Assembly (NCBI RefSeq): GCF_019973775.1
Contig: NZ_AP025032.1
Location: 248,001 to 312,000 of the forward strand
DNA: 64,000 nucleotides
Direction of reading: 5' to 3'
Source: Aureimonas sp. SA4125
Lineage (GTDB): Bacteria > Pseudomonadota > Alphaproteobacteria > Rhizobiales > Rhizobiaceae
In this document: positions 24,400-47,540 of the stretch, one piece after another
Position numbering within the stretch: the first letter of the stretch is position 1
How the letters are laid out: each line of letters begins with the position of its first letter
Position numbers and translations under genes: made by a program
The notes under the pieces: generated by a model
What the model saw: the letters and a program-made list of their open reading frames with translations, nothing else
What the model was told of the DNA's origin: nothing
The model's database searches: none

Positions 24400-24479
24400 G
24401 ATTTATTCCACTCCAGGCAGGGGGATGTCGGCGACTGCCGCGCGTCCATCGCACGCCGGACTTCACGCGCTAGAGGGCG

Positions 24480-25559: not shown

Positions 25560-25693
25560 CTGTCCCACATGTGACTGTGGCTAGCGAAAGGACACCGCTT
25601 TCACCCCTTGGTGATGGCGGGGCGGACAAACCGTGATCGCAAGCGCTCGATATCGTTCCGCCGTGCCGACGGAAGCGGAAGGGTTCGGGTTGC

Positions 25694-25856: not shown

Positions 25857-26630
25857 TCAATGCAGAACTTGCGACAGGAACGCCTTCAACCTGTCGCTTC
25901 GAGGTGCTTCAAAGAAGCTGTCAGCGGTTCCCGACTCCACGATCTCCCCCTTGTCCATAAAGACGCAACGGTTCGCTACGCGACGGGCGAAGCCCATCTC
26001 GTGCGTCACGCAAATCATGGTGATCCCGTCATTGGCGAGATCCTCCATCACCAGCAAGACCTCCTTGATCATCTCTGGATCCAGCGACGACGTCGGTTCA
26101 TCGAACAGCATGATCCGTGGCTCCATGCAGAGCGCCCGGGCGATCGCCACCCGCTGTTGCTGACCACCGGAGAGTTGGCTTGGATACTTGCCCGCCTGCT
26201 CACCAATTTGCACCCGGTCGAGATAGCGGCGGGCGAGGCGCTCGGCCGCTTCCAGGCTGGCGCCTCGGGTGAGACGCGGTGCCAGCATGCAGTTCTCGAG
26301 GATCGTCAGATGCGGAAACAGGTTGAACTGCTGGAAGACCATCCCGACCTCCAGGCGCACATCCTGCGTCTTGCTCGGAGAGCCGTCGAGTTCGATGCCG
26401 TTGACGACGATCTGTCCCGCATCGTGGGGCTCCAGGCGGTTGATGCATCGGATGAGCGTCGACTTGCCGGATCCCGACGGGCCGCAGACGACGATCTTCT
26501 CGCCGCGGATCACCTCGAGGTCAATGGCGTTCAGAGCGCGGAACTTTCCGTACCATTTGTCGACGCCCCTTATACTGACGGCGACGGAAGAGGCCGCGGG
26601 CTGAACGGTCTGAAGCGTCCCCACGGTCAT
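25857..26630 (-). CDS. Polar amino-acid ABC importer, ATPase subunit (TcyN/GlnQ type)
   Basis: A 257-residue ATPase with Walker A (CGPSGSGKST), Q-loop (MVFQQFNLFPHLT), signature (LSGGQQQRVAIAR), Walker B (IMLFDEPTSSLDPEM) and H-loop (CVTHEMGFARRVANR). These sequences are those of the polar amino-acid (GlnQ/HisP/TcyN) group. Its start overlaps the second permease stop by 4 bp. It is the last gene of the importer that follows the first NtaA-type monooxygenase. The B. subtilis relative TcyN serves cystine and modified cysteines, and specificity here is inferred from context only. Confidence 0.93.
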   Translation of the reverse strand: MTVGTLQTVQPAASSVAVSIRGVDKWYGKFRALNAIDLEVIRGEKIVVCGPSGSGKSTLIRCINRLEPHDAGQIVVNGIELDGSPSKTQDVRLEVGMVFQQFNLFPHLTILENCMLAPRLTRGASLEAAERLARRYLDRVQIGEQAGKYPSQLSGGQQQRVAIARALCMEPRIMLFDEPTSSLDPEMIKEVLLVMEDLANDGITMICVTHEMGFARRVANRCVFMDKGEIVESGTADSFFEAPRSDRLKAFLSQVLH

Positions 26631-27451
26631 AACGCATGCTCCTTGTGCGATGACAGCAGCGTACGTCCGGCCTTAAGCCAGCGGGATGGTCGGAGGCTGG
26701 AATGATCGGAGGCAAGATTTGTCTTAGCCGGCTTCTGATTACGACGGGCATCCTCTGCGGCGTGATGTCGGTTGAGGCGGATTTCGAGGCGACGGAAGCC
26801 AAAGCGGATCACGTTGATCAGGACCCAGTAGAAGGCGGCGACGGTCAACATTGGTGTGAACGGATCGTAGGTCATCTCGAACACCTCGTTCGCTACGGCT
26901 GTCAAGTCGACGATGGTGATGACGCCGATCACCGCCGTGCCCTTGGTCAGCATCACGATCTCGTTCTGATAGGCCTTGATCCCATAGCGCATCGCGAGCG
27001 GCAGCTGGATTTGGCGAAAGGTGTCCCTCGGAGAAATGCCGAGCGCGCTCGAGGCCTCACTAAGGCCGACCGGAACCGCCTGCAGGCTGCCGCGGACCAC
27101 GTCCACCATGAAGGCTAGATGGTTGAGCGTCAGTCCGATGACCGCACAGGCAAAGGCGCTCCCGAAAATGAACCAGAACGGCCCCTCTCGCAGGGACTGG
27201 ATCTGGCCGAAACCATAGTAGACGAGATAGAGCAGGATCAGCAGCGGTGCGCCACGAAAGAACATGACGAAAAATGCTGCCGGCCACGCCAAAACGCGTC
27301 TCGTCGACATCCTGGCAAGCGTGAGTGGGACGGAGAAGACAAGTCCGAGAGCGATGACGATCGCCGTAACCAGCATCGTGTTCCAAAGGCCATCAAGCAT
27401 GGCGGGAAAGGAATCTTGGACGAGATCGAAATCAATCACGAGTGCGTTCAT
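26627..27451 (-). CDS. Polar amino-acid ABC importer, permease
   Basis: A 274-residue HisM/TcyM-type permease with five or so membrane helices and the EAA-like loop EASSALGISPRDTFRQIQLPLAMRY. The last 45 residues (after FRRLEIRLNRH) are polar and outside the family core. It overlaps the other permease upstream and the ATPase downstream by 4 bp each (ATGA), so the subunits are translationally coupled. Confidence 0.93.
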   Translation of the reverse strand: MNALVIDFDLVQDSFPAMLDGLWNTMLVTAIVIALGLVFSVPLTLARMSTRRVLAWPAAFFVMFFRGAPLLILLYLVYYGFGQIQSLREGPFWFIFGSAFACAVIGLTLNHLAFMVDVVRGSLQAVPVGLSEASSALGISPRDTFRQIQLPLAMRYGIKAYQNEIVMLTKGTAVIGVITIVDLTAVANEVFEMTYDPFTPMLTVAAFYWVLINVIRFGFRRLEIRLNRHHAAEDARRNQKPAKTNLASDHSSLRPSRWLKAGRTLLSSHKEHAL

Positions 27452-28146
27452 GATTTTGCTCCTGCCAGTCCACGGTTGAAGCGAGTTTCGATGCGGGATG
27501 CCAGCGGCATCGTCAGTGCGCTGAACAGGATGAAGAACAGCGATGCGGCGATGAAGAAGATGAAGGGCTCGTTGGTCGCGCCGGCCGCGATCTTGGCGTT
27601 AGCGACAAGATCGTTCAGTCCTGCGAGCGATACGAGCGGCGTGTCCTTCAGAACGATCAGCCAGATATTGACGAGGCCGGGAAAGGCGAGGCGCGTGACT
27701 TGCGGGAGGATGACGTGGCGCCAGGTCCGATATGGACTGAGGGACAGCGCCGCGCAGGCCTCGAACTGGCCGCGCGGCAGGTTGCGCACAGCGCCGTGGA
27801 GGAGTTCGGCGACATAGGCCGCGTACACAATGGTCAGCGCCGCGAGACCTGCTCCGAAAGGCGTGACGTCGAAGGAGCGCGACATGCCGAACAACCCGGT
27901 CAAGATCGCGCTCCCGCCGTAGTAGAGCAGGAAGATCACGAGCAGAGACGGTACACCCATGATGATCGAAGAATAGACGCGCCAGATGGATTGTATGACG
28001 ACGTTCCGAGACAGCGTGATGATGCCGATGATCGTCCCCAGTAAGAATGCAAGCGAAAAACCCGCGAGGAAAAGCTGCAAAGTAACAACAGCGCCGTTCC
28101 CCATCTGGCGCGCATACCCCCAGAACTCCGAAGATGATATCTCCAT
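27448..28146 (-). CDS. Polar amino-acid ABC importer, permease
   Basis: A 232-residue HisQ/TcyL-type permease with the EAA-like loop EACAALSLSPYRTWRHVILPQVTRL and about five membrane helices. It pairs with the next permease to form the heterodimeric channel. It starts 41 bp after the first binding-protein gene. Confidence 0.92.
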   Translation of the reverse strand: MEISSSEFWGYARQMGNGAVVTLQLFLAGFSLAFLLGTIIGIITLSRNVVIQSIWRVYSSIIMGVPSLLVIFLLYYGGSAILTGLFGMSRSFDVTPFGAGLAALTIVYAAYVAELLHGAVRNLPRGQFEACAALSLSPYRTWRHVILPQVTRLAFPGLVNIWLIVLKDTPLVSLAGLNDLVANAKIAAGATNEPFIFFIAASLFFILFSALTMPLASRIETRFNRGLAGAKS

Positions 28147-28187
28147 GCCAGAACCCTTTCAGCCGTCACGGTGTCGAAGGCATGCGT

Positions 28188-29087
28188 TCAGTTGACCTTT
28201 GCTTCGCAGGCCGCATCCTCGGGAAGAATGGCGATGTCCATGTATTTCTTACGGATGGAAGTATAGGTACAGTCCGCCATGATCGACTTTATCGCCGTGT
28301 CCATCCGCGCCAGCAGAGCTTCTTCGCCTTTACGGACCACCCAGGATAACCCGCGCTCATTCTCGGGAACGGACGCCTCGCCGATCCAGTAGTCCTCGCC
28401 GACGATCTTGAAGGCCTTGCCTTCCGGTTTGCCGAGAAAATCGACGACGGCATTCAGCTTGGCCTCGAACGACATGTTGATGCGCCCGGCAATCATGTCG
28501 AGATGAATCTGGTCGGGATTGTCGTATAGGGAGTATTTTACCGCATCGCCGAAGATGTCCTCCGCTACTTTGATGTGTGCTCCACCGCGTTGCATCCCGA
28601 TCGTCATGCCTTTGCCGGTAAGGCCTTCCTTGGTCAGCGTATATTCTCCTTCGGCAGGAACGAGAAAAACCATCGGATTGGCCACGATGCGGGTGCTGAA
28701 GAGCATCTTCTCCTTGCGCTCGGCCGTCGGGGTCACCTGCGAGACGAGGATGTCGAACTTACCCTGTAGCATCGACGGGATCAGCGCCTTGAAGTCCATG
28801 ACGAGGATCTCGCACTCGGCTCCCATGCGCTTGCACATCTCGCGTGCAAGATCAGCCTCTATGCCCGTCAGATTACCGCTGGCGTCCACCATACTGAAGG
28901 GCGGATAGACGCCCTCGTTGCCGAGCTTCAGCGTTTCCGCGACGGCCGTGGACGCGATGGGAAGCAGGGCCGTCAGGCTCGCCAGCACGGCAAAGGCGAG
29001 GCCGGCGCGCCTCCGGCCGTTGGAGTGGCGCTCTGCCCCGGACGCCCCGGCGGAAAAGGACCTGCTATGCGTCGAGCGATTTTCCAT
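28188..29087 (-). CDS. Polar amino-acid ABC importer, binding protein
   Basis: A 299-residue periplasmic binding protein of the HisJ/TcyJK type. A long polar N-terminus precedes a signal hydrophobic core (about 25-48). The mature start is ETLKLGNEGVYPPFS, then GIEADLAREMCKRMG and a C-terminal TYTSIRKKYMDIAIL. I start at 29087, because the codons further upstream do not resemble the family. It is clearly paralogous to the next gene (shared GNEGVYPPFS, AREMCKRM, VMDFKALIPS/VPS, ENERG/ENKRG regions). Two binding proteins with one channel suggest two related ligands. Confidence 0.92.
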   Translation of the reverse strand: MENRSTHSRSFSAGASGAERHSNGRRRAGLAFAVLASLTALLPIASTAVAETLKLGNEGVYPPFSMVDASGNLTGIEADLAREMCKRMGAECEILVMDFKALIPSMLQGKFDILVSQVTPTAERKEKMLFSTRIVANPMVFLVPAEGEYTLTKEGLTGKGMTIGMQRGGAHIKVAEDIFGDAVKYSLYDNPDQIHLDMIAGRINMSFEAKLNAVVDFLGKPEGKAFKIVGEDYWIGEASVPENERGLSWVVRKGEEALLARMDTAIKSIMADCTYTSIRKKYMDIAILPEDAACEAKVN

Positions 29088-29154
29088 GGACGTGGTTCCC
29101 GTTGGTTGGAGACAGGCAAAACGCGGCGCGAGCCCCATAGCCGGCGATGCTCGA

Positions 29155-29988
29155 TCAGTTGGACGCGTCGACGCAGGCCGCCTCTGCGGCCAGGATGGTA
29201 ATGTCCAGATACTCCTTGCGAATCTTGGTGTAGGTGCAGTCTTCGATGATCGCGGCCAAGGCGACGTTCATCCTCTCGACGATCGCCTCGTCGCCCTTGC
29301 GCACGGCCCAGCTGTACCCGCGCTTGTTCTCTGGAATGGATGGATCTCCGATCCAGTGATCACCGCCGGCGAGGAGATAATCCTTGCCATCCGGCTTGTT
29401 GATCAGTTCCAGCGTCCAGTTGATCTTTGAATCGAAGACGAGGTCGATACGACCGGCCAGCAGATCGAGGCGCATCTGGTCGGGATTGTCATAGAGAACG
29501 GGGGAGAACAGCCCCTCGAAATTCTTTTCGACATAAGGGATCGACGCGGCGCCCCGCTGGAGGCCGAGCTTCAGATTCTTGCCGGCGAGCCCCTCAGGGG
29601 TGAAGGTCAGGTCGCTGCCCTTGCGCACCACGAAGGTCGTGGGATTGTAGACGATCGGCGTGCTGTATGTCAGTTTTTCCAGGCGCTCCGGCGTCGGTGA
29701 AAGCTGGCTCGCAAGGATGTTGAACTTGCCCTGCAGGATCGACGGCACCAGAGCCTTGAAATCCATCACGACGAACTCGCATTCAACCTCCATCCGCTTA
29801 CACATCTCGCGGGCTAGCGCCGGCTCGAAGCCCGTCAACTCTCCGTCGGAAGCCACGACGCTGAAGGGCGGATAGACCCCTTCATTGCCGAGCACGAGCG
29901 TTTCCGCCGCTGCAAGGCGCGGGATCAGAAGCAATGCTCCCATCAGCATGCTGGCGGCCGAGAGAGTGACTTTGGACAGTCTGGACAT
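29155..29988 (-). CDS. Polar amino-acid ABC importer, second binding protein
   Basis: A 277-residue binding protein with a cleavable signal peptide (LLLIPRLAAA) and mature start ETLVLGNEGVYPPFSVV. It is a tandem paralogue of the adjacent binding protein, with the same domain order and length. It lies 57 bp after the monooxygenase gene at 30046-31359 and heads the importer genes. A monooxygenase followed by an amino-acid importer is the arrangement of the B. subtilis yxe (S-(2-succino)cysteine) and ytm/tcy loci, which is why a sulfur-substituted amino acid is the leading guess for ligand. Confidence 0.92.
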   Translation of the reverse strand: MSRLSKVTLSAASMLMGALLLIPRLAAAETLVLGNEGVYPPFSVVASDGELTGFEPALAREMCKRMEVECEFVVMDFKALVPSILQGKFNILASQLSPTPERLEKLTYSTPIVYNPTTFVVRKGSDLTFTPEGLAGKNLKLGLQRGAASIPYVEKNFEGLFSPVLYDNPDQMRLDLLAGRIDLVFDSKINWTLELINKPDGKDYLLAGGDHWIGDPSIPENKRGYSWAVRKGDEAIVERMNVALAAIIEDCTYTKIRKEYLDITILAAEAACVDASN

Positions 29989-30045
29989 GAAGAGGCTCCT
30001 TATGCGTGAGAACGGGACGTCGGGTGGAGGCGCGGGACGCGGGCG

Positions 30046-31359
30046 CTAAAAATCCAGAAGATTGTCGCGCAGCTGCTCGTGCGCGTAGGCCTTGCGTGTC
30101 AGCCCGCGGTGCTGGAGCACCGGCACGAGGCCGTCGGTGATTGAGGCAACGGTGCGCCGATTGACGTTTGGCTGCTCGATCAGGAAGCCGTCGCCTCCGA
30201 CCTCTTCCATCACCTCCGCCATCTGGCTGGCGATGCTGTCGGGAGTGCCGACCATGTCGACGCAGTAGCCGCTCGTCGTATGCTCGATGATCGCCTCACG
30301 GAGAGTCTTGCCGGATGAGCGGGCGAGGAACTGCGCAAGGCTCGACTGATGTCCATTGGTGGTGAGTTCCCCGATGGGGGCGTCGAGATCGCAGCCCGAC
30401 AGGTCAAGATTGGTGCTCCAACCGAAGCGTGCGAGGCGCTGGTCGATGTTCCTTTCGGACGCGGCCCGACGCTCGGCGATGCGCTCGGCGGCCTCCGTCA
30501 TCGTTTCCGTCACGATCGGCTGCACCAGGAACAGGACCTTGCAGTGCTTCGGGTCCCGTCCGATCGCAGCCATCTCGGCGTGAATGTCTTCGCGGTACTG
30601 TTTCATGGAGGCCACGCCCTTCGGTGCTGCCACGATCGTGTCGGCATAGCGGGCGGCGAAACCCTTGCCGCTTTTCGAGCCACCCGCCTGGGCGATGACG
30701 GGCTGACCCTGCGGCAGTGGGCCTGAATTTAAGGGTCCGCGCGAGGAGTAGTATTTTCCCTTGTAGTCGATCGTATGGACCTTGCCGTGATCGATCAGCA
30801 CGCCGGTGTCGCGATCCCCGACGATCGCGCCAGGCTCCCATGATCCCCAGAGCCCCTGGCATATCTGCATGTACTCCTCAGCCATCACGTAGCGTTCGTC
30901 ATGGTCCGCCAGTTGCTCCATGCCGAAGTTCTGGGCAGAGAGGTCCGAACTGCCCGTGACGACGTTCCAGCCGCCTCGCCCGAGCGAGATCTGATCGAGG
31001 GTGCCGACGATCCGTGAGGTGAGGTAAGGATGATAGGCAAAGGTCGACAGCGTCGGCACGATGCCCAGGCGCGTCGTAGCGGCTGCCATCAATGTGGCGA
31101 CGACCGAAGGTTCCTGACGCGGCACGCTAATGCCGTTGGTGAGGAAAATCTCACGCGAATCCTGCCAGTTCTGCCCAATATAGATAGAGTCTTCTATGAG
31201 GATGTAGTCGAAGCAGGAGCGCTCCATTGCGCGGGCGAGGTCGAGATAGGCGCTTGGATACATCCAATCATGAGCGGTGTTTCCGGACCATTTGTCACCC
31301 CACCCACCAATGCTGGAGCCTTGAAGAAACCAACCGAGATGGAACATATTTGCTGGCAT
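30046..31359 (-). CDS. FMN-dependent monooxygenase of the NtaA/SnaA/DszA family (copy 1)
   Basis: A 437-residue luciferase-like (LLM) flavin monooxygenase that uses FMNH2 from a separate reductase and O2 to oxidise a carbon-sulfur or carbon-nitrogen substrate. Family motifs are FHLGWF at the start, GRGGWNVVTGS near 128-138, QNFGME, and AQAGGSKSGKGFAA in the FMN-phosphate region. The ATG at 31359 has AAGGGGAA upstream, better than the start 22 codons earlier. It heads the transcript with the two-binding-protein amino-acid importer and is separated from the rest of the monooxygenase cluster by the IS630-type element. Substrate unknown. Confidence 0.92.
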   Translation of the reverse strand: MPANMFHLGWFLQGSSIGGWGDKWSGNTAHDWMYPSAYLDLARAMERSCFDYILIEDSIYIGQNWQDSREIFLTNGISVPRQEPSVVATLMAAATTRLGIVPTLSTFAYHPYLTSRIVGTLDQISLGRGGWNVVTGSSDLSAQNFGMEQLADHDERYVMAEEYMQICQGLWGSWEPGAIVGDRDTGVLIDHGKVHTIDYKGKYYSSRGPLNSGPLPQGQPVIAQAGGSKSGKGFAARYADTIVAAPKGVASMKQYREDIHAEMAAIGRDPKHCKVLFLVQPIVTETMTEAAERIAERRAASERNIDQRLARFGWSTNLDLSGCDLDAPIGELTTNGHQSSLAQFLARSSGKTLREAIIEHTTSGYCVDMVGTPDSIASQMAEVMEEVGGDGFLIEQPNVNRRTVASITDGLVPVLQHRGLTRKAYAHEQLRDNLLDF

Positions 31360-31629
31360 GAACCGCTTCCCCTTGAGCACAGCCTGTCTCCTTCGGTCCG
31401 GAGGAGGCTTGCTGCAGCACGACATGAGGAGCGTATCGGCGTTTTCCTTTGTTAAACATGGCGAAAGGACAAACTGAAATCCGGCTTTGCCGAACCTTGC
31501 AACGCATCTTATTGCAGCGCAGCGACGCCTTTTTGATCATTATTTGGCAGCGCAGCAGAGGCGTCGTACGCAGCCATCGGCCCTCCAAGCGGTCGCTCGT
31601 CAAGCGAAAGGTACCGTATAGCTAAATAA
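31360..31629. other. Leader region of the copy-1 monooxygenase-importer transcript
   Basis: A 270-bp gap between the ATG at 31359 and the left end of the IS630-type element. It is AT-richer than neighbouring genes and must supply any promoter not provided by the element. It contains the direct repeats listed at 31514-31556. No gene is seen. Confidence 0.5.
31514..31556. repeat. Direct repeats GCAGCGCAGC, 33 bp apart, upstream of a monooxygenase gene
   Basis: Two identical 10-bp units at 31514-31523 and 31547-31556 flank an AT-rich stretch containing TTTTTGATCATTATTT. The 33-bp period is about three helical turns, which would suit a regulator binding on one face. They lie 155-197 bp upstream of the start at 31359. 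Confidence 0.45.
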
Positions 31630-32793
31630 TACCGCCAAGCGGATGACCTGACTCTGGCGTGATTTGCTTGGTATTCGCGGCGGTGATTTCCTTGTCCCGG
31701 ACGGGATGAGGGAGAGGTTCCTGGCTCTGGAGATCAGCGACAGATATTCGGCAGGTGAGCTTCGGGCGATGGCCCGGCGGGAAAGGAACGGCCGTGTGGC
31801 GAGCCGGATGCTGGCGATCGCCAACGCGTTGGACGGGATGAGCCGAGCGGATGCTGCGCGGGCCGCCGGCATGGATCGGCAGACGTTCCGCGACTGGGTG
31901 GTTCGCTACGGCGCCGCAGGGATTGCCGGGCTGCATGATCGGCCCAAGGGCCATCCTGCGCCGCGGCTGACGGAGGGCGAGTTGGCGGCGCTGGCAAACA
32001 TCATCTTCCGCGGCTCCGATCCCGAGAAGGACGGCATCTCGACCTGGACCTTGCCGGAACTGTGCCGCTGGATCGGGTCGCACTTCGGCAAGAGCCTGCA
32101 CCCTGCCAGCCTGTCGCGTATCCTTCGTGAGAATGGCTTCTCGCGACAGAAAACGCGGCCAAGCCATCCCGCCAAAGATCCCAAAGCGCAGGAGCGCTTC
32201 AAAAAAAGGGGCTCCGCGAGGCCCTGAGGGCTGCTCGCCAGGCCCATCGCGACCAACGGATCGAGCTGTGGTTCCAGGATGAAGCCCGTGCCGGCCAGAA
32301 GGGCCGGCTCTGCCATCGCTGGTGGACCCGCGGTCAACGCCCGCCGGGGCGGTGCGACCAGCGCTTCGACTGGACCTAAATCTTCGGCGCCGTCGCGCCG
32401 GCGACGGGACAGTCCTTCGCGCTCGTCCTGCCCTTCGCTGACAAGGAGATGATGAACCTCTATCTGGCCGAGTTCGCCAAGACCATTGCCATCGACGTCC
32501 ACGTCGTCATGGTCCTCGATGGCGCCGGCTGGCACGGCAAGGCGGCACTGAACGTGCCGGGCAACATCACCCTGGTCCCCTTGCCCGCCTACAGCCCCGA
32601 ACTCAACCCGGTCGAACGCCTTTGGCTCTATCTCAAGGAGACTTGCCTCTCGCTGCGCGTCTTTCCCGACAAGGCCGCCATCATCGACGCCTGCTGCCAG
32701 GCATGGAACCGCGCCACCGAGAACTTCGAGCGCATCATCTCGCGCTGCAATTACCCATGGATCAAAGCGGTCAGTTCATAAGCTCGGCGGTAT
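31630..32793 (+). mobile_element. IS630-family insertion sequence (degenerate)
   Basis: About 1.16 kb, bounded by TA dinucleotides and imperfect inverted repeats. The left end reads ATACCGCCAAGCGGATGACC, and the right end read inward is ATACCGCCGAGCTTATGAAC (16 of 20 match). The encoded transposase has a helix-turn-helix region and a DDE domain of IS630 type (FQDEARAG, VLDGAGWH, SPELNPVERLW). TA target use fits this family. It sits between flavin reductase and monooxygenase genes that face the same way, so it probably split an older operon. Confidence 0.85.
31706..32781 (+). pseudogene. IS630-family transposase, two frames plus an internal stop
   Basis: The first frame runs from the ATG at 31706 to a stop at 32227, with the N-terminal helix-turn-helix part (SRADAARAAGMDRQTFRDWV). 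The DDE domain continues in the -1 frame after a run of seven A at about 32205-32212. A -1 slip there would restore FKKKGLREALRAARQ, so programmed frameshifting is possible. However, the second frame also contains an in-frame TAA at 32377-32379, between FDWT and IFGAV, where relatives usually have a tyrosine codon. The enzyme is therefore probably inactive. The DDE glutamate is in NPVERLWLYLKE. Confidence 0.85.
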
Positions 32794-32946
32794 AAGTATT
32801 GGTTTGGATGACGTCTTGTCGGCCAGTTAAAGTCGCCGCTGGGCCCGCGCGAAAAACACCCCCCGGGATGTCAGGAAGGGTGCGCATCATTCGTGTGACT
32901 GGCACGATCGCCAGGGGCAAACAGACCCTCGCCGTCCCGCCGGCCG

Positions 32947-33483
32947 CTAGTCGGGCATCCGCAGGCCCTCAATCGTCTTACCGCGGAAGAAGACGAGCGG
33001 CTCGCCGTCCGGGCGGGATGTGGCGCCCACTACCCGCCCGATGACGATCGACACGCTGGCGTGCTGGACGACTTCCTCAACCATGCAGTCGAAGACGCCG
33101 AGCGCCTGACGGTACACCGGCGCACCGGTCACGAGCGTCGTCCATTCTCCGTCGACGAAGCGTGCCGCGCCCGACAATCCGGACTTGCCGCCAAAGGCGG
33201 TCGCGACGTGGCCGGCCGCCGAATCGAGGAAGTTCACCGCGAAATGGCCGCGCGATAGGACGCCGGCCAGCGCACTTGTCTTGCGGTCGATCGACACGAG
33301 CATCGTCGCCGGGTCCGCAGCCACATGCGCCGCAGATAGGCCGAGAAAGCCGGTCGGCCCCTCGTCGCTGTCGGCTGTCACGATCGTCATGCCGGTGACG
33401 CGGCTGCCGAGCGTTCGCCAGAATGTGCCCTGATCGATCGATGCCGGGGTCTGTGTTGCTGGAGCGATACCGATGTCGGTCAT
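32947..33483 (-). CDS. Flavin reductase domain protein (NtaB/HpaC type), second copy
   Basis: A 178-residue flavin reductase that would supply FMNH2 to the neighbouring two-component monooxygenases. It has the family pattern FWRTLGSRVTGMTIVTADSDEGPTG...SAAHVAADPATMLVSIDRKTS...HFAVNFL and a GVFDCMVEE strand. It begins 11 bp after the MsnO8-type gene stop and is last in the upstream part of the operon. The IS630-type element lies 150 bp downstream. Only distantly similar to the other reductase at 35366-35929. Confidence 0.9.
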   Translation of the reverse strand: MTDIGIAPATQTPASIDQGTFWRTLGSRVTGMTIVTADSDEGPTGFLGLSAAHVAADPATMLVSIDRKTSALAGVLSRGHFAVNFLDSAAGHVATAFGGKSGLSGAARFVDGEWTTLVTGAPVYRQALGVFDCMVEEVVQHASVSIVIGRVVGATSRPDGEPLVFFRGKTIEGLRMPD

Positions 33484-33494
33484 GGCGTTGCATC

Positions 33495-34589
33495 CTAAGA
33501 GTTCTGTTTCGACCTGTCAGCTGGCGCGGCAGCGGGAAGATTTGTCTCGTCGTGCGGGTCCTGTGTATGCGAGCGGCTGATCTCGGCGATGAGGCGGTAG
33601 GAGCGGATGCGATCGGAAAGCTCGTGCGTCGGCGTGACGATCACCATCTCATCCACACCAAGTTCCGCCTCGAGCGTCTGCAGCCGCCAGAACACCTGGT
33701 CGGCAGTGCCGGAGGCCGTGTGCTCGCGCAGAAGATCGAGCACCTCGCGCGGGGGTACGGCGGCTCCTTCCACCGTCTTCCCCTGCCTCGGCAGAGGTAC
33801 TGTTCGTCCGCTGTCGCGCGCGAGCCGCCATAGGGCATAGGACAGAAAGAGGCGCTCCGCCTCGGCGGCGGTCGGGGCCGCCATTGCAAAGACGCAGAGC
33901 CCGAGAAGGGGTTCATTCAGAGTTGCCGACGGTGTGAAGTTGCCACGATAGGCGGCAACCGCCTTCTGAGCGTCGGAGCCGTCGCCGAAGAAGTATGCAT
34001 GGCAGAAGGGCAGGCCGAGATAACCCGCAAGACGCGCCGAGTAGAGGCTTGATCCGACGATCCAGGGCTGCGGACCCGTCGGTCCGAGGGGCTGCGCGAC
34101 GACGCCCGCGAAAACATGGTCGTCGCCGAGCGGCTGGCCAAGGGCCAAGGTGACGGCGTCGGCGACGTCGGTTGGAAAACTGTCCATCGTGGACATGGCG
34201 AAGGGATTGTCGATGGCGCCGGGCTTCAGGGCATAGGCTGTCTGTCGGTCTGCGCCGGGACCTCGACCCAGCCCAAGGTCTACGCGTCCCGGCGCCAGGG
34301 CCTCGAGCACGCGGAACTGCTCGGCAACCTTCAACGGCGCGTAATGCGGCAGCATCACGCCGGCGCTGCCGATGCGCATCGTGCTCGTCGCCATGGCCAG
34401 GGCTCCGAGCAACACCTCCGGGGCCGATCCGGCTATGGCGACATTCCCGTGATGCTCGGACACCCAGAAGCGCCTGTAGCCGAAATCCTCGCATTCACGC
34501 GCAAGCGCCACGGTATCGCGGATGGCCTGAGCCGCGCTCCGGCCCGCCGAGACAAGCGATTGATCGAGAACCGAGAGTCGCATCCTCAT
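33495..34589 (-). CDS. Luciferase-like monooxygenase, MsnO8/YtmO type
   Basis: A 364-residue LLM protein of the group-1 type: RLSVLDQSLVSAGRSAAQAI at the start, YRRFWVSEHHGN, PGRVDLGLGRGPGADRQTAYAL, and GSSLYSARLAGYLGLPF. These motifs match the MsnO8 family, whose B. subtilis relative YtmO lies in the ytmI/tcyJKLMN operon for modified sulfur amino acids. It needs a separate flavin reductase. It starts 18 bp after ribB, and the reductase gene follows by 11 bp, so the three are co-transcribed. Substrate unknown. Confidence 0.9.
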   Translation of the reverse strand: MRMRLSVLDQSLVSAGRSAAQAIRDTVALARECEDFGYRRFWVSEHHGNVAIAGSAPEVLLGALAMATSTMRIGSAGVMLPHYAPLKVAEQFRVLEALAPGRVDLGLGRGPGADRQTAYALKPGAIDNPFAMSTMDSFPTDVADAVTLALGQPLGDDHVFAGVVAQPLGPTGPQPWIVGSSLYSARLAGYLGLPFCHAYFFGDGSDAQKAVAAYRGNFTPSATLNEPLLGLCVFAMAAPTAAEAERLFLSYALWRLARDSGRTVPLPRQGKTVEGAAVPPREVLDLLREHTASGTADQVFWRLQTLEAELGVDEMVIVTPTHELSDRIRSYRLIAEISRSHTQDPHDETNLPAAAPADRSKQNS

Positions 34590-34607
34590 GATCGGAGCGT
34601 CCTACCG

Positions 34608-35312
34608 CTAGGCGACTTGATTCGAGCTTGTGCTTGCATGGGAAGAGGTATCGTCGCCGATGGCGCGACGATAGGCGACGAGATCGGCGATGGTTCCGAT
34701 CTTCATGCCGTGGCGCCGGGCGAAAATTAGGAGGTCCGGCAGACGGGCCATGGTGCCGTCGTCGTTCATCACCTCGCAGATGACGCCGGAGGGGGCGTGC
34801 CCGGCGAGACGGGCGACGTCCACCGCCGCTTCCGTGTGGCCTCGCCGGACGAGCGTCCCCCCGTCGCGCGCGACAATCGGAAAGATGTGGCCTGGCATCA
34901 CGAGGTCCGCCGGACCCGAGGCCTGGTCTATGGCGACGGCGATCGTACGGGCCCGATCCGGTGCCGAAATGCCCGTCGTCACGCCGATGCGCGCTTCAAT
35001 GGAGACAGTGAACGCCGTCCCCATCGGGTCGGTAACGACAGGGGCCATCGGCGCCAGCGCCAGCGCCTCGGCACGTTCCCTCGTGATTGCGAGGCAAACC
35101 AGCCCGCAGGCATGGCGCGCCATGAAGTTGACGACCTCGGCCGTGGCGAAGCAGGCCGGAATGACAACGTCGCCCTCGTTCTCGCGATCCTCGTCATCGA
35201 CGAGGATGAACATCCGGCCCTGCCGCGCCTCCTCGATGATCTCCGCCGTACTCGCGACGGGTCCAAGCGGTATTGTCTTTATCCGGCGGAATTCGGGGAC
35301 CATGCTGTTCAC
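34608..35312 (-). CDS. ribB: 3,4-dihydroxy-2-butanone 4-phosphate synthase (RibB) in a monooxygenase operon
   Basis: Converts ribulose 5-phosphate to dihydroxybutanone phosphate, the four-carbon precursor of riboflavin. The 234 residues contain the family signatures: acidic FILVDDEDRENEGDVVIPA, GMGT-like DPMGTAFTVSIEA, TTGISAPDRA, and LVRRGHTEAAVDVARLAG. There is no GTP cyclohydrolase II domain, so it is a stand-alone enzyme. I choose the GTG at 35312 because AGGAG lies 6 bp upstream; the ATG three codons later is the alternative. It is flanked by a flavin reductase and an LLM gene, so it is probably a dedicated booster of FMN supply. No FMN riboswitch is visible in the 53-bp gap. Confidence 0.92.
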   Translation of the reverse strand: MNSMVPEFRRIKTIPLGPVASTAEIIEEARQGRMFILVDDEDRENEGDVVIPACFATAEVVNFMARHACGLVCLAITRERAEALALAPMAPVVTDPMGTAFTVSIEARIGVTTGISAPDRARTIAVAIDQASGPADLVMPGHIFPIVARDGGTLVRRGHTEAAVDVARLAGHAPSGVICEVMNDDGTMARLPDLLIFARRHGMKIGTIADLVAYRRAIGDDTSSHASTSSNQVA

Positions 35313-35365
35313 GGAACTCTCCTGTCTCTCGTCGCGCGATGCGGGCCGGACGTATCCGTCTACTC

Positions 35366-35929
35366 TCAGGAGACGGCATGAAATTTTCGGTCGAAGTAGA
35401 CGAGCGCCTCGCCTCCGGTGGCACCCTCGCCGCCGCATACCGCCAGTACCTCGCAGAAGAAGACGTCATGCGTGCCGATGGTGCTGACATTGGTGACGCG
35501 GCAGTCGAAGCTGACGATCGAGCCGGCCAGCACCGGTGCGCCTGTGACGAGTTCGGTCCAGCTCCCTCCGGCGAAGCGCTGCTTCATGTCCTTGTTGCCG
35601 CCCGCCCCGGCAAAGGTCATCGCCAAACCTTCCTGCGGGCCGGCGACGGTGTTGACGCAGAGAACGCCCGAGGTCGAGATCGCCTTGTGGGCTTGGACTG
35701 TGCGGTTGACGCAGACCAGAAGCGTCGGCGGGCTGTCCGTGACGCTCGATACCGCCGAGGCGGTGAAGCCGCACCATCCGTCCTCGCCGGTGCTGGTGAT
35801 GATGTTCACGGCGGCGGCCAGCCTGGCCATGCCGTCCCGGTAAACTTGACGCTCGACCGGATGAAACGAAGTCGGGCCGGCATCGGGCGCCGCCGGCGGG
35901 GGGATGATCTCTGCTACTGCATGGGACAT
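35366..35929 (-). CDS. Flavin reductase domain protein (NtaB/HpaC type), first copy
   Basis: A 187-residue NAD(P)H:FMN reductase-like protein: QVYRDGMARLAAAVNIITS, DGWCGFTASAVSSVTDSPPTLLVCVNR, GVLCVNTVAG, and a closing FFCEVLAV / ALVYFDRKFH. It lies between the tandem NtaA-type monooxygenases and ribB on the same strand, the usual position for the reductase partner of such oxygenases. Presence of two different reductases in one operon suggests partner specialisation or redundancy. Confidence 0.92.
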   Translation of the reverse strand: MSHAVAEIIPPPAAPDAGPTSFHPVERQVYRDGMARLAAAVNIITSTGEDGWCGFTASAVSSVTDSPPTLLVCVNRTVQAHKAISTSGVLCVNTVAGPQEGLAMTFAGAGGNKDMKQRFAGGSWTELVTGAPVLAGSIVSFDCRVTNVSTIGTHDVFFCEVLAVCGGEGATGGEALVYFDRKFHAVS

Positions 35930-36005
35930 CGGGTACCTCGTTGTCGGATGGGTCGTCGCGTTTGCGTCGTTCGATCTGATGCTCGATCCTGGCTGGATAT
36001 CGTGA

Positions 36006-37310
36006 TCAGAATTCCCGCAGAGTCTCGCGCAGCGTCGGCTTTGTGTATTGGGTGCGCGTCAGGCCTCGGCGCTGCAGGGCCGGGACGAGCCCCTCGCAGA
36101 TTTCGAGAATGTACTGACGGCTGATCGTCGTCGTGAACGGACGGGTTATGAGGAAACCGTCGCCGCCGACCGCTTCCATGATTTCCCCGAGGCGGTCCGC
36201 CACTTGATCGGGCGTTCCAACAAGTCCATCGATCCCGCGGGAGACCTGCTCCATGCAGATCTCCCGCAGTGTCTTGCCGCTGCCCCACTGCGCGAAGGCG
36301 TCGAGTGAGCCCTGCTCGCCGTTGGTGGTCAGGTGCGGCAGTTCGGCGTCGAGATCGAATTTCGAGAAGTCGATGTCGGTGATCGAACTGATCGAGGCGA
36401 GCACCTTCTCGATATAGCTCGGATGAGACGATATCCGCTTGAACTTGGCGTGGGCTTCCGCTTCGGTTTCCCCGAGCACTGGGGCGATGACGAAGAGCAC
36501 CTTGATCTCGTCCGGATCGCGCCCGCCGGCTGCCGCCCTGGCGCGTACGTCGTCGCGGTAGGCCTTGATCCCATCGACACCAGAGGAGGGAGCGATGATG
36601 CTGTCTGCGGTCATCGCCGCGAACTGTCGCCCTCGCGGCGAGCCCCCGGCCTGCACGAAAGTCGGCCGGCCCTGCGGACCCGGCACGCAGTTCAGCGGCC
36701 CACGGCACTTGTAGTACTTGCCGACAAAGTTGATCGGCCGAACTTTGCGGTAGTCGGCGTAGGTATCGGTCTCCCTGTCGAGGACCACCGCATCCTTGTC
36801 CCAGCTGCCCCAGAGCTGCTTGCAGAGCTCGACATATTCGTCCGCCATGTCGTAGCGGTCCTGACGAGGCGGCAGCTCGTCCATGCCGAAATTCTGGGCT
36901 GCCAGGTTTTCGCCGCTGGTCACGATGTTCCAGCCGAAACGGCCTCCGGAGATGCTGTCGAGCGTCGCGCACAGACGGGCCAGCATGAAGGGCGGATAGG
37001 CCATCGTCGACATCGTCGCGACGACGCCCAGATGGCTCGTATTGGCCCCGATCAAAGCCGCCATTGGCGCCGGGTCCGCCTTTGGACCCATGATCGCATG
37101 CTTCAGATAAGCCTCCGTGCTGTCGCCGTAGGCCTCGGATATCATCAGCGTGTCTTCGAGCATGATGTAGTCGAAACAGGCCCGTTCCATCGCCTTGGCC
37201 ATGTCGATGTAGAAGCCGCCGTCCCACGGATGGCCATCGGCACCGAAGGGATGGTTCCATTCGCTGACCGCGAAGTTCATGAACCATCCGAGATGGAAAC
37301 GCTTCGGCAT
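36006..37310 (-). CDS. FMN-dependent monooxygenase of the NtaA/SnaA/DszA family (copy 2)
   Basis: A 434-residue LLM monooxygenase: FHLGWFMNF at the start, GRFGWNIVTSGENLAAQNFG in the middle, FVQAGGSPRGRQFAA, and a C-terminal ALQRRGLTRTQY. It shares 443 bp of identical DNA (36592-37034) with the adjacent copy 3, while the flanking parts differ, a sign of gene conversion. It starts 51 bp after the stop of copy 3 with GAAGGA upstream. FMNH2 would come from the reductase that follows. The divergent C-terminal third may set substrate range. Confidence 0.93.
   Translation of the reverse strand: MPKRFHLGWFMNFAVSEWNHPFGADGHPWDGGFYIDMAKAMERACFDYIMLEDTLMISEAYGDSTEAYLKHAIMGPKADPAPMAALIGANTSHLGVVATMSTMAYPPFMLARLCATLDSISGGRFGWNIVTSGENLAAQNFGMDELPPRQDRYDMADEYVELCKQLWGSWDKDAVVLDRETDTYADYRKVRPINFVGKYYKCRGPLNCVPGPQGRPTFVQAGGSPRGRQFAAMTADSIIAPSSGVDGIKAYRDDVRARAAAGGRDPDEIKVLFVIAPVLGETEAEAHAKFKRISSHPSYIEKVLASISSITDIDFSKFDLDAELPHLTTNGEQGSLDAFAQWGSGKTLREICMEQVSRGIDGLVGTPDQVADRLGEIMEAVGGDGFLITRPFTTTISRQYILEICEGLVPALQRRGLTRTQYTKPTLRETLREF
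36592..37034 (-). repeat. 443-bp tract identical to 37945-38387
   Basis: Read by eye base for base, this segment of the copy-2 monooxygenase gene is identical to the corresponding segment of copy 3, offset 1353 bp. Sequence on both sides diverges at once. It covers the flavin-binding core of the protein. Confidence 0.9.
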
Positions 37311-37361
37311 GTATGGGTCCTTCTCTCTCAGGCTTGTCGGCTTCCGCTCGTCATGAGGGTT

Positions 37362-38663
37362 CTAAAACTCGCGCAACGTCTCGCGCAGTGTCGGTCCGGT
37401 ATATTCGGTACGTGTCAGGCCCCTGCGCTGTAGGGCAGGCACAAGCCCTTCGCAGACCTCGGTGACATACTGGCGGCTAACCTTCTGGAAGGGCGAACTG
37501 ATGAGGAAGCCGTCGCCACCGACCGCCTCCATGACCTCGCCGAGCCGATCCGCAACCTGATCCGGGGTGCCGACGATGCCGTCGAGACCGCGAGTCGCGC
37601 GGTCGTTGACAAGCTGGCGCAGGGTCTTGCCACTACCCCATTGCGCGAAAGCATCGAGGGAGCCCTGCTCGCCGTTGGTGGTCATTCGCGGCAGCTCGGT
37701 GTCGAGATCGAACGTCGAGAAATCGATGTCTGTGACTGAGCTGATCGAAGCCAGCGTCTTCACCTGATACTCGGGAGAGGATGTGTATTCGTGGAGCTTG
37801 GCTTTGGCCGCCGCTTCGGTTTCCGCCAGAACCGGGGTGACGATGAAAAACACCTTCACCTCGTCCGGATCGCGCCCGCCGGCTTCGGCCCGCGCCCGAA
37901 TGTCGTCGCGATACTCCTTCATCGCGGCGATACCGGATGCGGCGGCGATGATGCTGTCTGCGGTCATCGCCGCGAACTGTCGCCCTCGCGGCGAGCCCCC
38001 GGCCTGCACGAAAGTCGGCCGGCCCTGCGGACCCGGCACGCAGTTCAGCGGCCCACGGCACTTGTAGTACTTGCCGACAAAGTTGATCGGCCGAACTTTG
38101 CGGTAGTCGGCGTAGGTATCGGTCTCCCTGTCGAGGACCACCGCATCCTTGTCCCAGCTGCCCCAGAGCTGCTTGCAGAGCTCGACATATTCGTCCGCCA
38201 TGTCGTAGCGGTCCTGACGAGGCGGCAGCTCGTCCATGCCGAAATTCTGGGCTGCCAGGTTTTCGCCGCTGGTCACGATGTTCCAGCCGAAACGGCCTCC
38301 GGAGATGCTGTCGAGCGTCGCGCACAGACGGGCCAGCATGAAGGGCGGATAGGCCATCGTCGACATCGTCGCGACGACGCCCAGATGCTTGGTCCGGCTC
38401 GCGATCAGCGCCGCAAGCGGCATTGGATCGCTTTTCGGTCCCATCAGCGCGTACTTCAGGTAGGCTTCCATGCTGTGGCCGTAGGCCTCGGATATCATCA
38501 GCGTGTCTTCGAGCATGATGTAGTCGAAACAGGCCCGCTCCATCGCCTTGGCCATATCGACGTAGAAGGAGCCGTCCCACGGCTTCCCCCCGCTGGAGAA
38601 TGGGGCGTTCCAGTCGTCGACCGAGAAATTCATGAACCAGGCGAGGTGAAAGCTCTTCGACAT
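37362..38663 (-). CDS. FMN-dependent monooxygenase of the NtaA/SnaA/DszA family (copy 3)
   Basis: A 433-residue LLM monooxygenase and first gene of the long minus-strand operon. It begins MSKSFHLAWFMNFSVDDW, carries the same GRFGWNIVTSGE and FVQAGGSPRGRQFAA motifs as copy 2, and ends ALQRRGLTRTEYTGPTLRETL. The N-terminal 95 and C-terminal 200 or so residues differ from copy 2 while the centre is identical. AAGGA lies upstream of the ATG, just past a 15-bp tandem duplication. A divergent LysR gene 491 bp away probably controls it. Confidence 0.93.
   Translation of the reverse strand: MSKSFHLAWFMNFSVDDWNAPFSSGGKPWDGSFYVDMAKAMERACFDYIMLEDTLMISEAYGHSMEAYLKYALMGPKSDPMPLAALIASRTKHLGVVATMSTMAYPPFMLARLCATLDSISGGRFGWNIVTSGENLAAQNFGMDELPPRQDRYDMADEYVELCKQLWGSWDKDAVVLDRETDTYADYRKVRPINFVGKYYKCRGPLNCVPGPQGRPTFVQAGGSPRGRQFAAMTADSIIAAASGIAAMKEYRDDIRARAEAGGRDPDEVKVFFIVTPVLAETEAAAKAKLHEYTSSPEYQVKTLASISSVTDIDFSTFDLDTELPRMTTNGEQGSLDAFAQWGSGKTLRQLVNDRATRGLDGIVGTPDQVADRLGEVMEAVGGDGFLISSPFQKVSRQYVTEVCEGLVPALQRRGLTRTEYTGPTLRETLREF
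37945..38387 (-). repeat. 443-bp tract identical to 36592-37034
   Basis: Second copy of the identical tract, inside the copy-3 monooxygenase gene. A further shared stretch of about 60 bp occurs at 38481-38540, after a diverged gap. Confidence 0.9.
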
Positions 38664-39154
38664 TCCGGCTGGCTTCCTTGTGTACGGCAGACTTGTGTAC
38701 GGCAGACTTCCGAAACCGGGCCGGTGTGGGTCACCGAAGCGGCATGCGACGACGTTAGCCGCAGTGCAGCATGGGCGACCATCGGCAAAGCTTGATGCTT
38801 TGATTGGGCAAGGAGGATGCTTTCCAGTCGAGCCCTACTGCAATTCGGCAATTGTTTTCGCCTCTTGGCGCAACACCCGCTGGCAGGCGGCTTGTTGTCG
38901 TCTGGGTGCTTTCAGCCTCAGCAGGAAATCATGGCGGGTGATGCGTGCAATGCATCATGCAGATCGGGACTGCACGTGGCGTAGGCACTTCTTCCTAGTT
39001 CGGCGACCACCGCCGGCGGCCCGGGTGGTCGCTGCTGCCAGTCATGCCCGCCAGTCATTCGTTTCTGTGCACAATCGGTCCGTCGGGGCCCGTAATGGCA
39101 CGAGGTTTGCAGGGCGTGCGACGGAGCCGGTCAAACAAACAGAACTGGTGTGCA
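38664..39154. other. 491-bp divergent promoter region between LysR and the monooxygenase operon
   Basis: It separates the minus-strand monooxygenase operon from the plus-strand LysR gene. It contains the 15-bp tandem duplication near the operon start and an inverted repeat CGTGCA-N21-TGCACG (38944-38976). LysR proteins usually bind such shared regions. No gene is seen. Confidence 0.55.
38677..38706. repeat. Tandem 15-bp duplication in the monooxygenase operon leader
   Basis: CTTGTGTACGGCAGA occurs twice in a row, 14-43 bp upstream of the copy-3 start codon. Each unit holds GTAC. It lies in the probable 5' UTR, so it may be a recent slippage duplication or a regulator site. Confidence 0.7.
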
Positions 39155-40108
39155 ATGTCGAATTTGTCTCAAATTTACGACATCGACCTGAAGTTGTTGC
39201 GCTGCTTCTGCACAATTGTAGAGGAAGGTGGCTTCACGGCTGCTCAGGCAGCGTTGAATCTCTCCCAATCCATGCTGAGCGAGTATCTGAAATCGCTGGA
39301 AATCCGTCTCGGCGTAAGGTTGTGCCAGCGAGGCCCGAAGGGCTTCAAGCTGTATCATGAGGGCGAGGTCGTCTATCAGGCCGCCAAGGAACTGTTCGCC
39401 TCAGTCGAGAGCTTCAAGCAGCGCGCCTCCAATCTCAACGACAGTGCCGGACACGAGCTCATCATCGGCGTTCAGGACCATATCGTCGACAACCCGCAGT
39501 CGCGCATTGCTGAGGCGATCAGCCGCCTCGCCGAATACTATCCCAACGCGCGTTTCAAGCTGGAAATCATGCTGGGTTTCCAGATGACGGGCCGCGTGGC
39601 AGACGGCCTCATTCACGTCGGCATCGGTCTCACCGACGACCAGTTCAGCCAATTGTCCTTCGAGCCTCTCTTCGAGGAGGCGTCTGCAATCTATTGCGGT
39701 CGGACGCATCCGCTGTTTCACATTCGCGATTGCGATATTACGCGCCAGCAGATCGAAAACGCCGTCTATGCGAACCGCGGCCATCTCGAGCACTTCCACC
39801 CCGAGCGCATCCGCAATGCGGCCACCCGCGGCGACATCGGATACGGCGCCCATGCGCACATGACGCTCATTCTGTCTGGTCGCAATATCGGCTATCTGCC
39901 GGACCATGTGGCGGCGCCCCATGTCGAAAGCGGCCGACTACGGGTGTTGCGCCACGACCTCACCGGCAAGGTCCACGCCATCGCCGCGGTGACGGGACCG
40001 AGTTCGAGCGAGTTCAAATTGGCACGGCGCTTTGTCGACTGCCTCGTCGACATCCATATGGAGCACGAGCCGGTGGCTGGCGGACGAATGCAGATTGTCA
40101 GTTCATGA
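39155..40108 (+). CDS. LysR-family transcriptional regulator
   Basis: A 317-residue regulator with an N-terminal helix-turn-helix (LKLLRCFCTIVEEGGFTAAQ, ALNLSQSMLSEYLKSLEIRLG) and a C-terminal effector domain (HELIIGVQDHIVDN, GLIHVGIGL, YLPDHVAA). I start at the ATG at 39155, which gives the usual N-terminal length; in-frame upstream codons do not fit. It diverges from the monooxygenase operon and is the best candidate for its control. The effector is unknown, and sulfate-starvation regulators such as CysB and Cbl belong to the same superfamily. Confidence 0.92.
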   Translation: MSNLSQIYDIDLKLLRCFCTIVEEGGFTAAQAALNLSQSMLSEYLKSLEIRLGVRLCQRGPKGFKLYHEGEVVYQAAKELFASVESFKQRASNLNDSAGHELIIGVQDHIVDNPQSRIAEAISRLAEYYPNARFKLEIMLGFQMTGRVADGLIHVGIGLTDDQFSQLSFEPLFEEASAIYCGRTHPLFHIRDCDITRQQIENAVYANRGHLEHFHPERIRNAATRGDIGYGAHAHMTLILSGRNIGYLPDHVAAPHVESGRLRVLRHDLTGKVHAIAAVTGPSSSEFKLARRFVDCLVDIHMEHEPVAGGRMQIVSS

Positions 40109-40174
40109 CAGCATGATCACATCACGCTTGTTTCGAGCATCGTCGAGACGTTCGGGCGCGCTGCAAAATACGCC

Positions 40175-42741: not shown

Positions 42742-43143
42742 TTTCTGAATGCCAAGTCCGGGCGCGGTGCGAGTTGTCGGCTCTTCACTGCGTCACTGTG
42801 TGGATCGGAAAGGGATCCTGCGCTGGAGCAAAGAAGGCGAAACTGCCGATCCGATGCCTGGCGCGGGCCAGATATGACTGCCTTGCCCTCGTGATAGATG
42901 CAGCGTTGTCGCATCGGCCATCACAAAAATTGAAAGCGCGGTTCGGCCACTTCCAATGTTGTAGAGTGATCGACCCCGTTACGGTCTCTCCGTTGGCGAC
43001 GGCGGTTTTCGGCCGACGATCTCAATATCTGGACTCGCTGGAGCAGCCTGCAGCGGCGGCCAACGACGTCGCCGATGCCGCCACTATCCCCCCCCGAAAT
43101 CAAGTAAGTAGCGTAATAACCGACAACCAAGAGGGGCCAGCAG
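42742..43143. other. 402-bp divergent region between MATE and metallo-hydrolase genes
   Basis: It should hold promoters for both divergent transcripts. I see no clear palindrome or -10/-35 pair. GAGGGG lies 10 bp upstream of the metallo-hydrolase ATG. Confidence 0.45.
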
Positions 43144-45847: not shown

Positions 45848-45886
45848 CGCCAGCAGGGCGGTCGACTAGAGGGGGGCCGAAGGCCG

Positions 45887-46705: not shown

Positions 46706-46707
46706 CA

Positions 46708-47529: not shown

Positions 47530-47540
47530 AGGAGACCACG

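Follow-up and report, generated by a model that had tools for sequence, protein, structure and literature searches.

A run of genes at positions 25857-38663 in Aureimonas sp. SA4125 places flavin-dependent luciferase-like monooxygenases (LLMs) beside an amino-acid ATP-binding cassette (ABC) importer, and the question that it raises is what the importer takes up and which bond the oxygenases cleave. The run was analysed within a stretch of 64,000 nucleotides from contig NZ_AP025032.1 (the window), which holds five of the seven PF00296 matches in the genome. An original prediction had likened it to the Bacillus subtilis ytmI/tcyJKLMN operon, called it an island and proposed that it removes S- or N-substituents from amino acids by oxidation. 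In the analysis reported here, the core of a conserved system was found to consist of LLM1/2, LLM3, the importer and a LysR-type regulator, with MsnO8 and RibB as optional parts. With roughly an even chance of being right, the system is a LysR-controlled catabolic or detoxifying regulon for an imported amino-acid derivative that the LLMs would cleave. The gene calls and the architectural parallel of the original prediction were supported, as was its chemistry as the likeliest one; the kinship to ytmI and the term island were not.

Gene content of the locus

From 38663 down to 25857 the order on the minus strand is LLM1, LLM2, FR1, RibB, MsnO8, FR2, an IS630-type element, LLM3, SBP1, SBP2, P1, P2 and ATPase, where FR denotes a flavin reductase, SBP a substrate-binding protein and P a permease. 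The features, with the adjoining regulator and predicted regulatory site, are as follows.

39044..40108, plus strand: LysR-type regulator (PF00126/PF03466), divergent from LLM1
38779..38800, minus strand: predicted regulon site upstream of LLM1 (position weight matrix score 27.4)
37362..38663, minus strand: LLM1, NtaA/DmoA-family monooxygenase dependent on flavin mononucleotide (FMN) (TIGR03860, 410 bits)
36006..37310, minus strand: LLM2, tandem paralogue of LLM1 (TIGR03860, 404 bits; 82% identity to LLM1)
35366..35929, minus strand: FR1, flavin reductase (PF01613), RutF/HpaC-like but under the cut-offs for those families (TIGR03615, 194 of 254.75 bits)
34608..35303, minus strand: RibB, 3,4-dihydroxy-2-butanone 4-phosphate (DHBP) synthase (PF00926; TIGR00506, 218 against a cut-off of 177)
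33495..34589, minus strand: MsnO8-family LLM oxidoreductase (TIGR03558, 340 bits, cut-off 166.95)
32947..33483, minus strand: FR2, flavin reductase (PF01613)
30046..31359, minus strand: LLM3, NtaA/DmoA-family monooxygenase (TIGR03860, 381 bits)
29155..29988, minus strand: SBP1, binding protein like the lysine-arginine-ornithine (LAO) type, without the alpha-amine-binding Asp (profile, sequence and fold matches)
28188..29087, minus strand: SBP2, second binding protein (profile match and alignment to LAO)
27448..28146, minus strand: P1, amino-acid ABC permease (TIGR01726, over cut-off)
26627..27451, minus strand: P2, amino-acid ABC permease (TIGR01726, over cut-off)
25857..26630, minus strand: importer ATPase (GlnQ-like, 319 of 379 bits)

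Profile matches confirmed every gene that had been called between 25857 and 38663, all on the minus strand. Neighbouring genes are separated by 11-76 bp or overlap by 4 bp, with the exception of FR2 and LLM3, which are 1587 bp apart. The open reading frames (ORFs) of RibB, LLM3 and SBP2 open at 35438, 31425 and 29138, and their starts were placed at about 35303, 31359 and 29087 from orthologue length and alignment. RibB carries the DHBP-synthase domain only; since a second PF00926 gene with a longer open frame is present in the genome at C1:896405, the RibB of the cluster is an extra copy.

Conservation of the module in other genomes

Beyond the genome itself, a search for LLM2 covered 396 genomes of the order, eight of which had a relative of at least 70% identity, and 384 of the class, of which one did. 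Inspection of 12-20 kb around each relative showed the module in eight of the nine genomes (G095, G277, G058, G010, G226, G077 and G210 of the order, and G390 of the class). The ninth, G188, has an LLM2 match at 74% and no other module gene within the 12 kb inspected. Across the eight other genomes, protein identity was 75-88% for LLM2, 69-81% for LLM3, 70-81% for the ATPase and, by tblastn, 57-75% for the LysR protein encoded beside the cluster.

All nine loci, the window included, carry LysR, one or two LLM1/2 genes, LLM3, at least one SBP, P1, P2 and the ATPase, and in all nine LLM3 adjoins the importer. A flavin reductase is present in eight, MsnO8 in seven (detached in G277), and RibB and the MATE and EamA exporter genes described below in five each. 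The smallest version, in G077, comprises LLM2, LLM3, the importer and LysR; LLM1 of G390 appears as two tblastn pieces.

Strong matches to SBP1 (E <= 1e-70) were found in six of 258 other genomes of the order, all six with the module, and in two of 249 others of the class, namely G390, which has the module, and G338. The G338 locus (L211, 8344-12368) holds an importer of the same type, but the gene ahead of it encodes a TauD-type dioxygenase and not an LLM. In a draw from the phylum, LLM3 was matched at 70% identity or more in one of 397 other genomes; among ten hand-chosen further genomes only that of Roseomonas gave a match (56% identity), and there the neighbouring transporter is of another, Liv-like type. 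The best 120 database matches to LLM3 were 67-94% identical, and the named ones bear family or generic names only. Among 80 named loci, of at least 563, with MsnO8 relatives, the module was present only in the two from Chthonobacter and Methylobrevis; in the other 78, apart from the MsnO8 gene and ORFs that overlap it, a single neighbour family, an unidentified one in 12 loci, was seen in more than ten. No account of the cluster was found in open-licence PMC texts.

Downstream of the importer and on the same strand, the window encodes a beta-lactamase-fold serine hydrolase and an alpha/beta hydrolase (23389-25568); the stretches inspected around the modules of relatives showed no homologue of either.

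The oxygenases form a separate subfamily

LLM1-3 and LLM4, a fourth TIGR03860 protein encoded outside the cluster, all exceed the curated cut-off of that NtaA/DmoA model (279.7 bits). Among proteins of solved structure, LLM1-3 matched DszA first (219-277 bits); lower matches were DmoA (209-259), YtnJ (217-237), nitrilotriacetate (NTA) monooxygenase (176-206) and ethylenediaminetetraacetate (EDTA) monooxygenase (143-164), their order varying and others being interspersed. The best solved matches thus include two enzymes, DszA and DmoA, whose reactions are C-S cleavages according to passages of PMC10863075, and also YtnJ. Closest kinship to EDTA/NTA enzymes had been named beforehand as the result that would speak against the original prediction, and it was not what was found.

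A tree was built with four references only (DszA, DmoA, LadA and YtnJ), represented by sequence segments taken from the structure matches. These grouped apart, with support of 1.0, from LLM1-4 and their relatives in Marinibacterium, Salipiger, Streptomyces, Rhodococcus fascians and Roseomonas. LLM1-4 are 45-82% identical to each other and 32-39% identical to the references, and by this placement they are assigned to a subfamily of their own, for which no characterised member was found in these comparisons. Orthology of LLM1-3 to YtnJ was rejected by the tree; their identity is 33-35% to YtnJ and 34-39% to DszA, and the proposed kinship to ytmI was not borne out. The bond specificity of the subfamily can only be predicted from such relationships.

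One alternative to C-S cleavage is oxidative N-dealkylation, in which an opine-like or N-carboxyalkyl amino acid would lose its N-substituent as a keto acid, in the manner of the NTA monooxygenase reaction. The NTA and EDTA systems (NtaA, EmoA) combine the same TIGR03860-type enzymes with a flavin reductase; their enzymes were weaker solved matches than DszA. The binding-protein pocket, considered below, also bears on it.

Two other members of the LLM subfamily were observed on plasmids. On pFiD188 of R. fascians D188 (L197, 8001-9305), an LLM gene with 55% identity to LLM2 directly follows genes annotated as fas4, an FAD-binding protein and a TIGR00730 protein. On a plasmid of Streptomyces jietaisiensis (L195, 4437-12148), an LLM 51% identical to LLM3 is encoded with a flavin reductase, preceded by radical SAM, peptidase, methyltransferase and MFS transporter genes, and the whole has the look of a small natural-product cluster.

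The binding proteins have lost the alpha-amine anchor

The best match of SBP1 and SBP2, by sequence and by fold, was the LAO type. A cystine-type (TcyJ/K-like) identity, as the comparison with tcyJKLMN implied, was not supported, since SBP1 and SBP2 scored 96 and 90 of 312 bits on the cystine model NF008426. Pocket positions 11, 14, 52, 69, 70, 72, 77 and 160-162 (LAO numbering) were compared in 58 sequences, with residue roles taken from the relevant passages of PMC4192606 and PMC5740067. The equivalent of the carboxylate-binding Arg77 of LAO (R102) was conserved in 58/58. The alpha-amine-binding Asp161 was lost in every sequence, being replaced by Ser in 35, Ala in 18, Pro in three and Leu in two, at a position that is ungapped in the alignment of SBP2 with LAO. 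Because of this loss, an amino acid blocked at its alpha nitrogen is more likely to be the ligand than a plain amino acid.

A preference of the binding proteins for plain basic amino acids had likewise been named as an outcome contrary to the prediction; the LAO match points towards such a preference, and the missing alpha-amine residue points away from it. The same evidence bears on the explanation that a plain basic-amino-acid importer simply adjoins unrelated oxygenases. The LAO match is in its favour, as is the finding that the LLM3-importer genes lie on the opposite strand to LLM1/2 in G277, G077 and G210. The constant pairing of LLM3 with the importer and the universal loss of the Asp argue against it, and it is considered quite improbable.

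The opine-binding proteins NocT and OccJ share with SBP1 and SBP2 the LAO-like fold, the Arg carboxylate anchor, the conserved Tyr and the loss of the alpha-amine Asp. In the signature of NocT (Gly97-Met117-His170-Ser207), the Ser207 equivalent was Ser in 35/58, but position 97 was S, A, T, N, K or L and never Gly (0/58); the present proteins also differ from NocT and OccJ in being encoded next to oxygenases. With the position 97 result added to the weaker NTA and EDTA matches, N-dealkylation is regarded as an unlikely, if serious, possibility.

A common upstream motif and two predicted co-regulated exporters

Gibbs sampling over 19 regions upstream of LLM1 or LLM3 yielded a 22-base motif of 16.9 bits, versus 10.8-11.8 bits in six Markov-generated controls. 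Taken alone this strength is soft, because fewer restarts were used for the controls and because of the relatedness among the LLM1 regions. A weight matrix built from nine LLM1 sites was then applied to other places. The LLM1 site of the window was the best in 64 kb (27.4), though it is itself a training sequence of the matrix, and a held-out site on the lysR side of locus L031, where an SBP_bac_5 gene sits between lysR and LLM1, scored 30.1. The second-best site in the window lies upstream of a pair of exporter genes beyond the divergent LysR gene, which the original prediction had overlooked.

40175..41053, minus strand: EamA exporter, presumed operon partner of MATE (PF00892; TIGR00950, 54 of 230 bits); the ORF opens at 41782 and the start at 41053 is inferred
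41299..42741, minus strand: MATE exporter, predicted regulon member (PF01554), beside the cluster in five of nine genomes
42918..42939, minus strand: second predicted regulon site, upstream of MATE (score 17.9)

The motif was found upstream of MATE in four of the five genomes that have this gene, the other three scores being 20.0 (L032), 19.3 (L035) and 15.2 (L033). As background, 1,540 kb of other loci, scanned on both strands, reached at least 17.5 at two places and at least 15.5 at 11. Other promoters of the window (those of the LLM4 unit, its TetR gene, RibB, MsnO8 and EamA) scored from -4.8 to 3.5. Upstream of LLM3, seven of nine regions scored 10.8-15.8, values reached by 0.6-1.5% of background windows. 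These results suggest that the LLM1 operon and MATE-EamA probably have a common regulator, that LysR, which would bind the motif; since the motif lies upstream of both LLM1 and MATE, the exporters probably belong to the regulon. The LLM3-importer unit may be under the same regulator too.

No FMN or other riboswitch was found upstream of the cluster in a scan of 20000-52000 that considered matches up to E = 1, where the RNA-family matches were one tRNA and four weak ones under their family thresholds; none was found in seven module loci either.

An insertion between FR2 and LLM3

The 1587-bp gap between FR2 and LLM3 is filled by an element that the original prediction had overlooked.

31629..32793, plus strand: IS630-type element, with transposase domains in two ORFs (31664-32227 and 32449-32781)

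Its terminal repeats are imperfect (18/22 positions match), and the same genome contains a 95% copy at G000:C1:1593614-1594730 and a partial copy at 732001-732481. On account of the repeats and the 95% copy, it is probably a recent visitor. The run from FR2 to LLM3 is unbroken in G095, G058, G010 and G226, where the spacing is a few hundred bases. The element is an insertion and has no part in the function of the cluster. It was the sole mobile element seen, and no integrase was found among the window ORFs scanned. Integration at the tRNA-Arg gene (49638-49714) was considered and ruled out, as no word of at least 12 bases from the tRNA region is repeated in the window. The description of the locus as an island was accordingly not upheld.

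A separate LLM4 unit

The fourth TIGR03860 gene, which the original prediction also overlooked, belongs to a separate unit.

43939-48854: LLM4 unit (TetR, SBP, permease, ATPase, LLM4), with LLM4 (418 bits) and an SsuABC-like transporter at 44651-48854

Its SBP exceeds the cut-off of TIGR03427 ('putative urea ABC transporter'), and the TetR gene is divergent from the SBP gene. The unit recurs in other genomes apart from the LLM1-3 cluster. In its relatives a flavin reductase gene follows LLM4, which was not seen in the window; a creatininase gene (Salipiger) or an amidase gene (L169) may also follow. The last two hint at N-chemistry in the subfamily. No guanidine or other RNA switch was detected at the gathering threshold in seven LLM4-type loci.

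These genes bear on a further alternative, the opening of an N-heterocycle or lactam by RutA-like LLMs, with a hydantoin-, pyroglutamate- or guanidine-like amino-acid derivative as substrate. The LLM4 unit with its TIGR03427 SBP and following creatininase or amidase gene would fit such a reaction, as would the RutF-like FR1 and the hydantoinase A/B-type genes beside the module in Marinibacterium and G390. However, RutA matched LLM1-3 at 48-67 bits only, and by tblastn hydantoinase genes were near the module in one of the eight other module genomes (G390), the nearer pair being convergent. Ring opening is thought rather improbable. In the G390 locus (L188, 1492-17033), two pairs of hydantoinase A/B-type genes were observed near the module.

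Comparison with known salvage systems

The CmoO/CmoJ salvage system is taken here to be that of the B. subtilis ytmI/ytn operon with tcyJKLMN, CmoJ presumably being YtnJ and CmoO YtmO. The cluster resembles it in combining MsnO8-type and NtaA-family monooxygenases with a flavin reductase, a two-SBP importer and a LysR regulator. It differs in the separate subfamily of its oxygenases, in its LAO-like SBPs without the alpha-amine Asp, in the optional MsnO8, in the presence of RibB rather than RibR and in the exporters of the predicted regulon. Neither an acetyltransferase nor a deacetylase was found among the ORFs scanned at 25857-42741, as the original prediction had stated. The resemblance to ytmI had leaned on RibB and MsnO8, which are absent from four and two of the nine loci. 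Real kinship with the ytmI/tcy operon, followed by the exchange of single genes, would explain the shared kinds of parts, including a flavin-supply gene, but the LLMs would then be expected among YtnJ orthologues and the SBPs among cystine-like proteins, and this explanation is highly improbable.

According to passages of PMC10863075, S-alkylcysteine is N-acetylated, sulfoxidised by CmoO and cleaved at the C-S bond by CmoJ, which is homologous to YxeK and DszA. The yxe/scm operon for S-(2-succino)cysteine (YxeK, YxeL, YxeP, YxeMNO), as outlined in PMC9706529, likewise pairs an NtaA-family monooxygenase with an ABC importer; the present cluster differs in having two LLM types and in that no acetyltransferase was found. 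Acetylation, breakdown and deacetylation form a general scheme in the relevant parts of PMC9706529 and PMC12757645, the latter of which (2025) calls acetylation crucial in all cases described so far. Around the relatives, 64 flanking ORFs were scanned (of 76 picked), and among the 25 of 72 Pfam families listed no acetyltransferase or M20 family matched more than one of these ORFs. A tblastn search with the Marinibacterium M20 protein described below (E <= 1e-8) gave no hit to the window or to the stretches around the eight other modules.

In the lux-rib operons of luminous bacteria, too, a riboflavin gene is placed with a luciferase-family oxygenase and a flavin reductase; the cluster differs from them in its importer and in carrying RibB in only five of nine loci. 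The likeness in architecture to CmoO/CmoJ and YxeK was supported, and the cluster appears to work as these salvage systems do; it is not the ytmI operon.

Proposed function

In the proposed regulon, the imported compound would be an amino-acid derivative that is bound through its carboxylate by the conserved Arg and that, judging from the pocket, bears a substituent on its alpha-nitrogen. FR1 and FR2 would make FMNH2 in the cytoplasm, and RibB would replenish flavin. In loci that have MsnO8, this enzyme may insert a first oxygen, as CmoO does. LLM1/LLM2 and LLM3 would then use O2 to cleave a C-heteroatom bond, most likely C-S as for CmoJ, YxeK and DszA. One product would be an aldehyde or keto acid; the other, the amino-acid portion, could be used by the cell. 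Product that is toxic or in excess would leave through MATE/EamA. The likeliest chemistry is the removal of an S- or N-substituent by oxidation.

Several observations weigh against this reading. MsnO8, RibB and the exporters are optional among the nine loci, and no recognised sulfur-metabolism gene was found among the cluster genes. None of the four characterised enzymes is markedly nearer to LLM1-4 than the others, so that sequence leaves the cleaved bond unfixed, and LLM4 units are followed by the creatininase or amidase gene already mentioned. In L191 (G095) the region upstream of MATE lacks the motif (score 2.2). The region upstream of LLM3 scored 7.6 in the window itself and 0.3 in L158, values reached by 4% and 42% of background windows. 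Genome-wide, the degenerate motif occurred at 35 places versus 16 for a reversed control, and is therefore too unspecific to define a wider regulon.

A variant of the module was observed on plasmid pLA6_009 of Marinibacterium anthonyi (L194, 13847-25572), with identities of 49% (LysR), 69% (LLM), 53% (SBP) and 66% (ATPase). An M20 amidohydrolase gene, annotated yxeP-like as in yxe/scm, lies there between the permease and ATPase genes, and two hydantoinase/caprolactamase-like genes follow in line.

A more specific form of the proposal, put forward tentatively and with a fairly low chance of being right, is mercapturate-type salvage, in which cysteine conjugates that are already N-acylated would be imported and cut at the C-S bond by the new LLM subfamily, with LysR-coupled export of thiol or amine. 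Import of an N-blocked compound would account for the lost amine anchor, for the acetyltransferase that was not found and for the Marinibacterium M20 gene. If true, such salvage would skip the acetylation step that passages of PMC12757645 describe as crucial.

Biological meaning

The system would belong with the known flavin-oxygenase salvage of substituted amino acids, from which its oxygenase subfamily, its SBP pocket and its predicted co-regulated exporters set it apart. A vague 'flavin monooxygenase' annotation is replaced by a defined, testable unit of a fixed pair of oxygenase types, one importer and a predicted regulatory site, which two exporters join in five of nine genomes. Its relatives are numerous, the best 120 LLM3 matches all being at least 67% identical. 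Opine breakdown is usually ascribed to opine dehydrogenases, and if the ligand is opine-like, oxygenases would be doing their job. If the ligand is instead an amino acid that is N-blocked and S-substituted, the binding protein would suffice to identify it, and the system would reveal a shorter route by which cysteine conjugates, damaged or xenobiotic, are salvaged.

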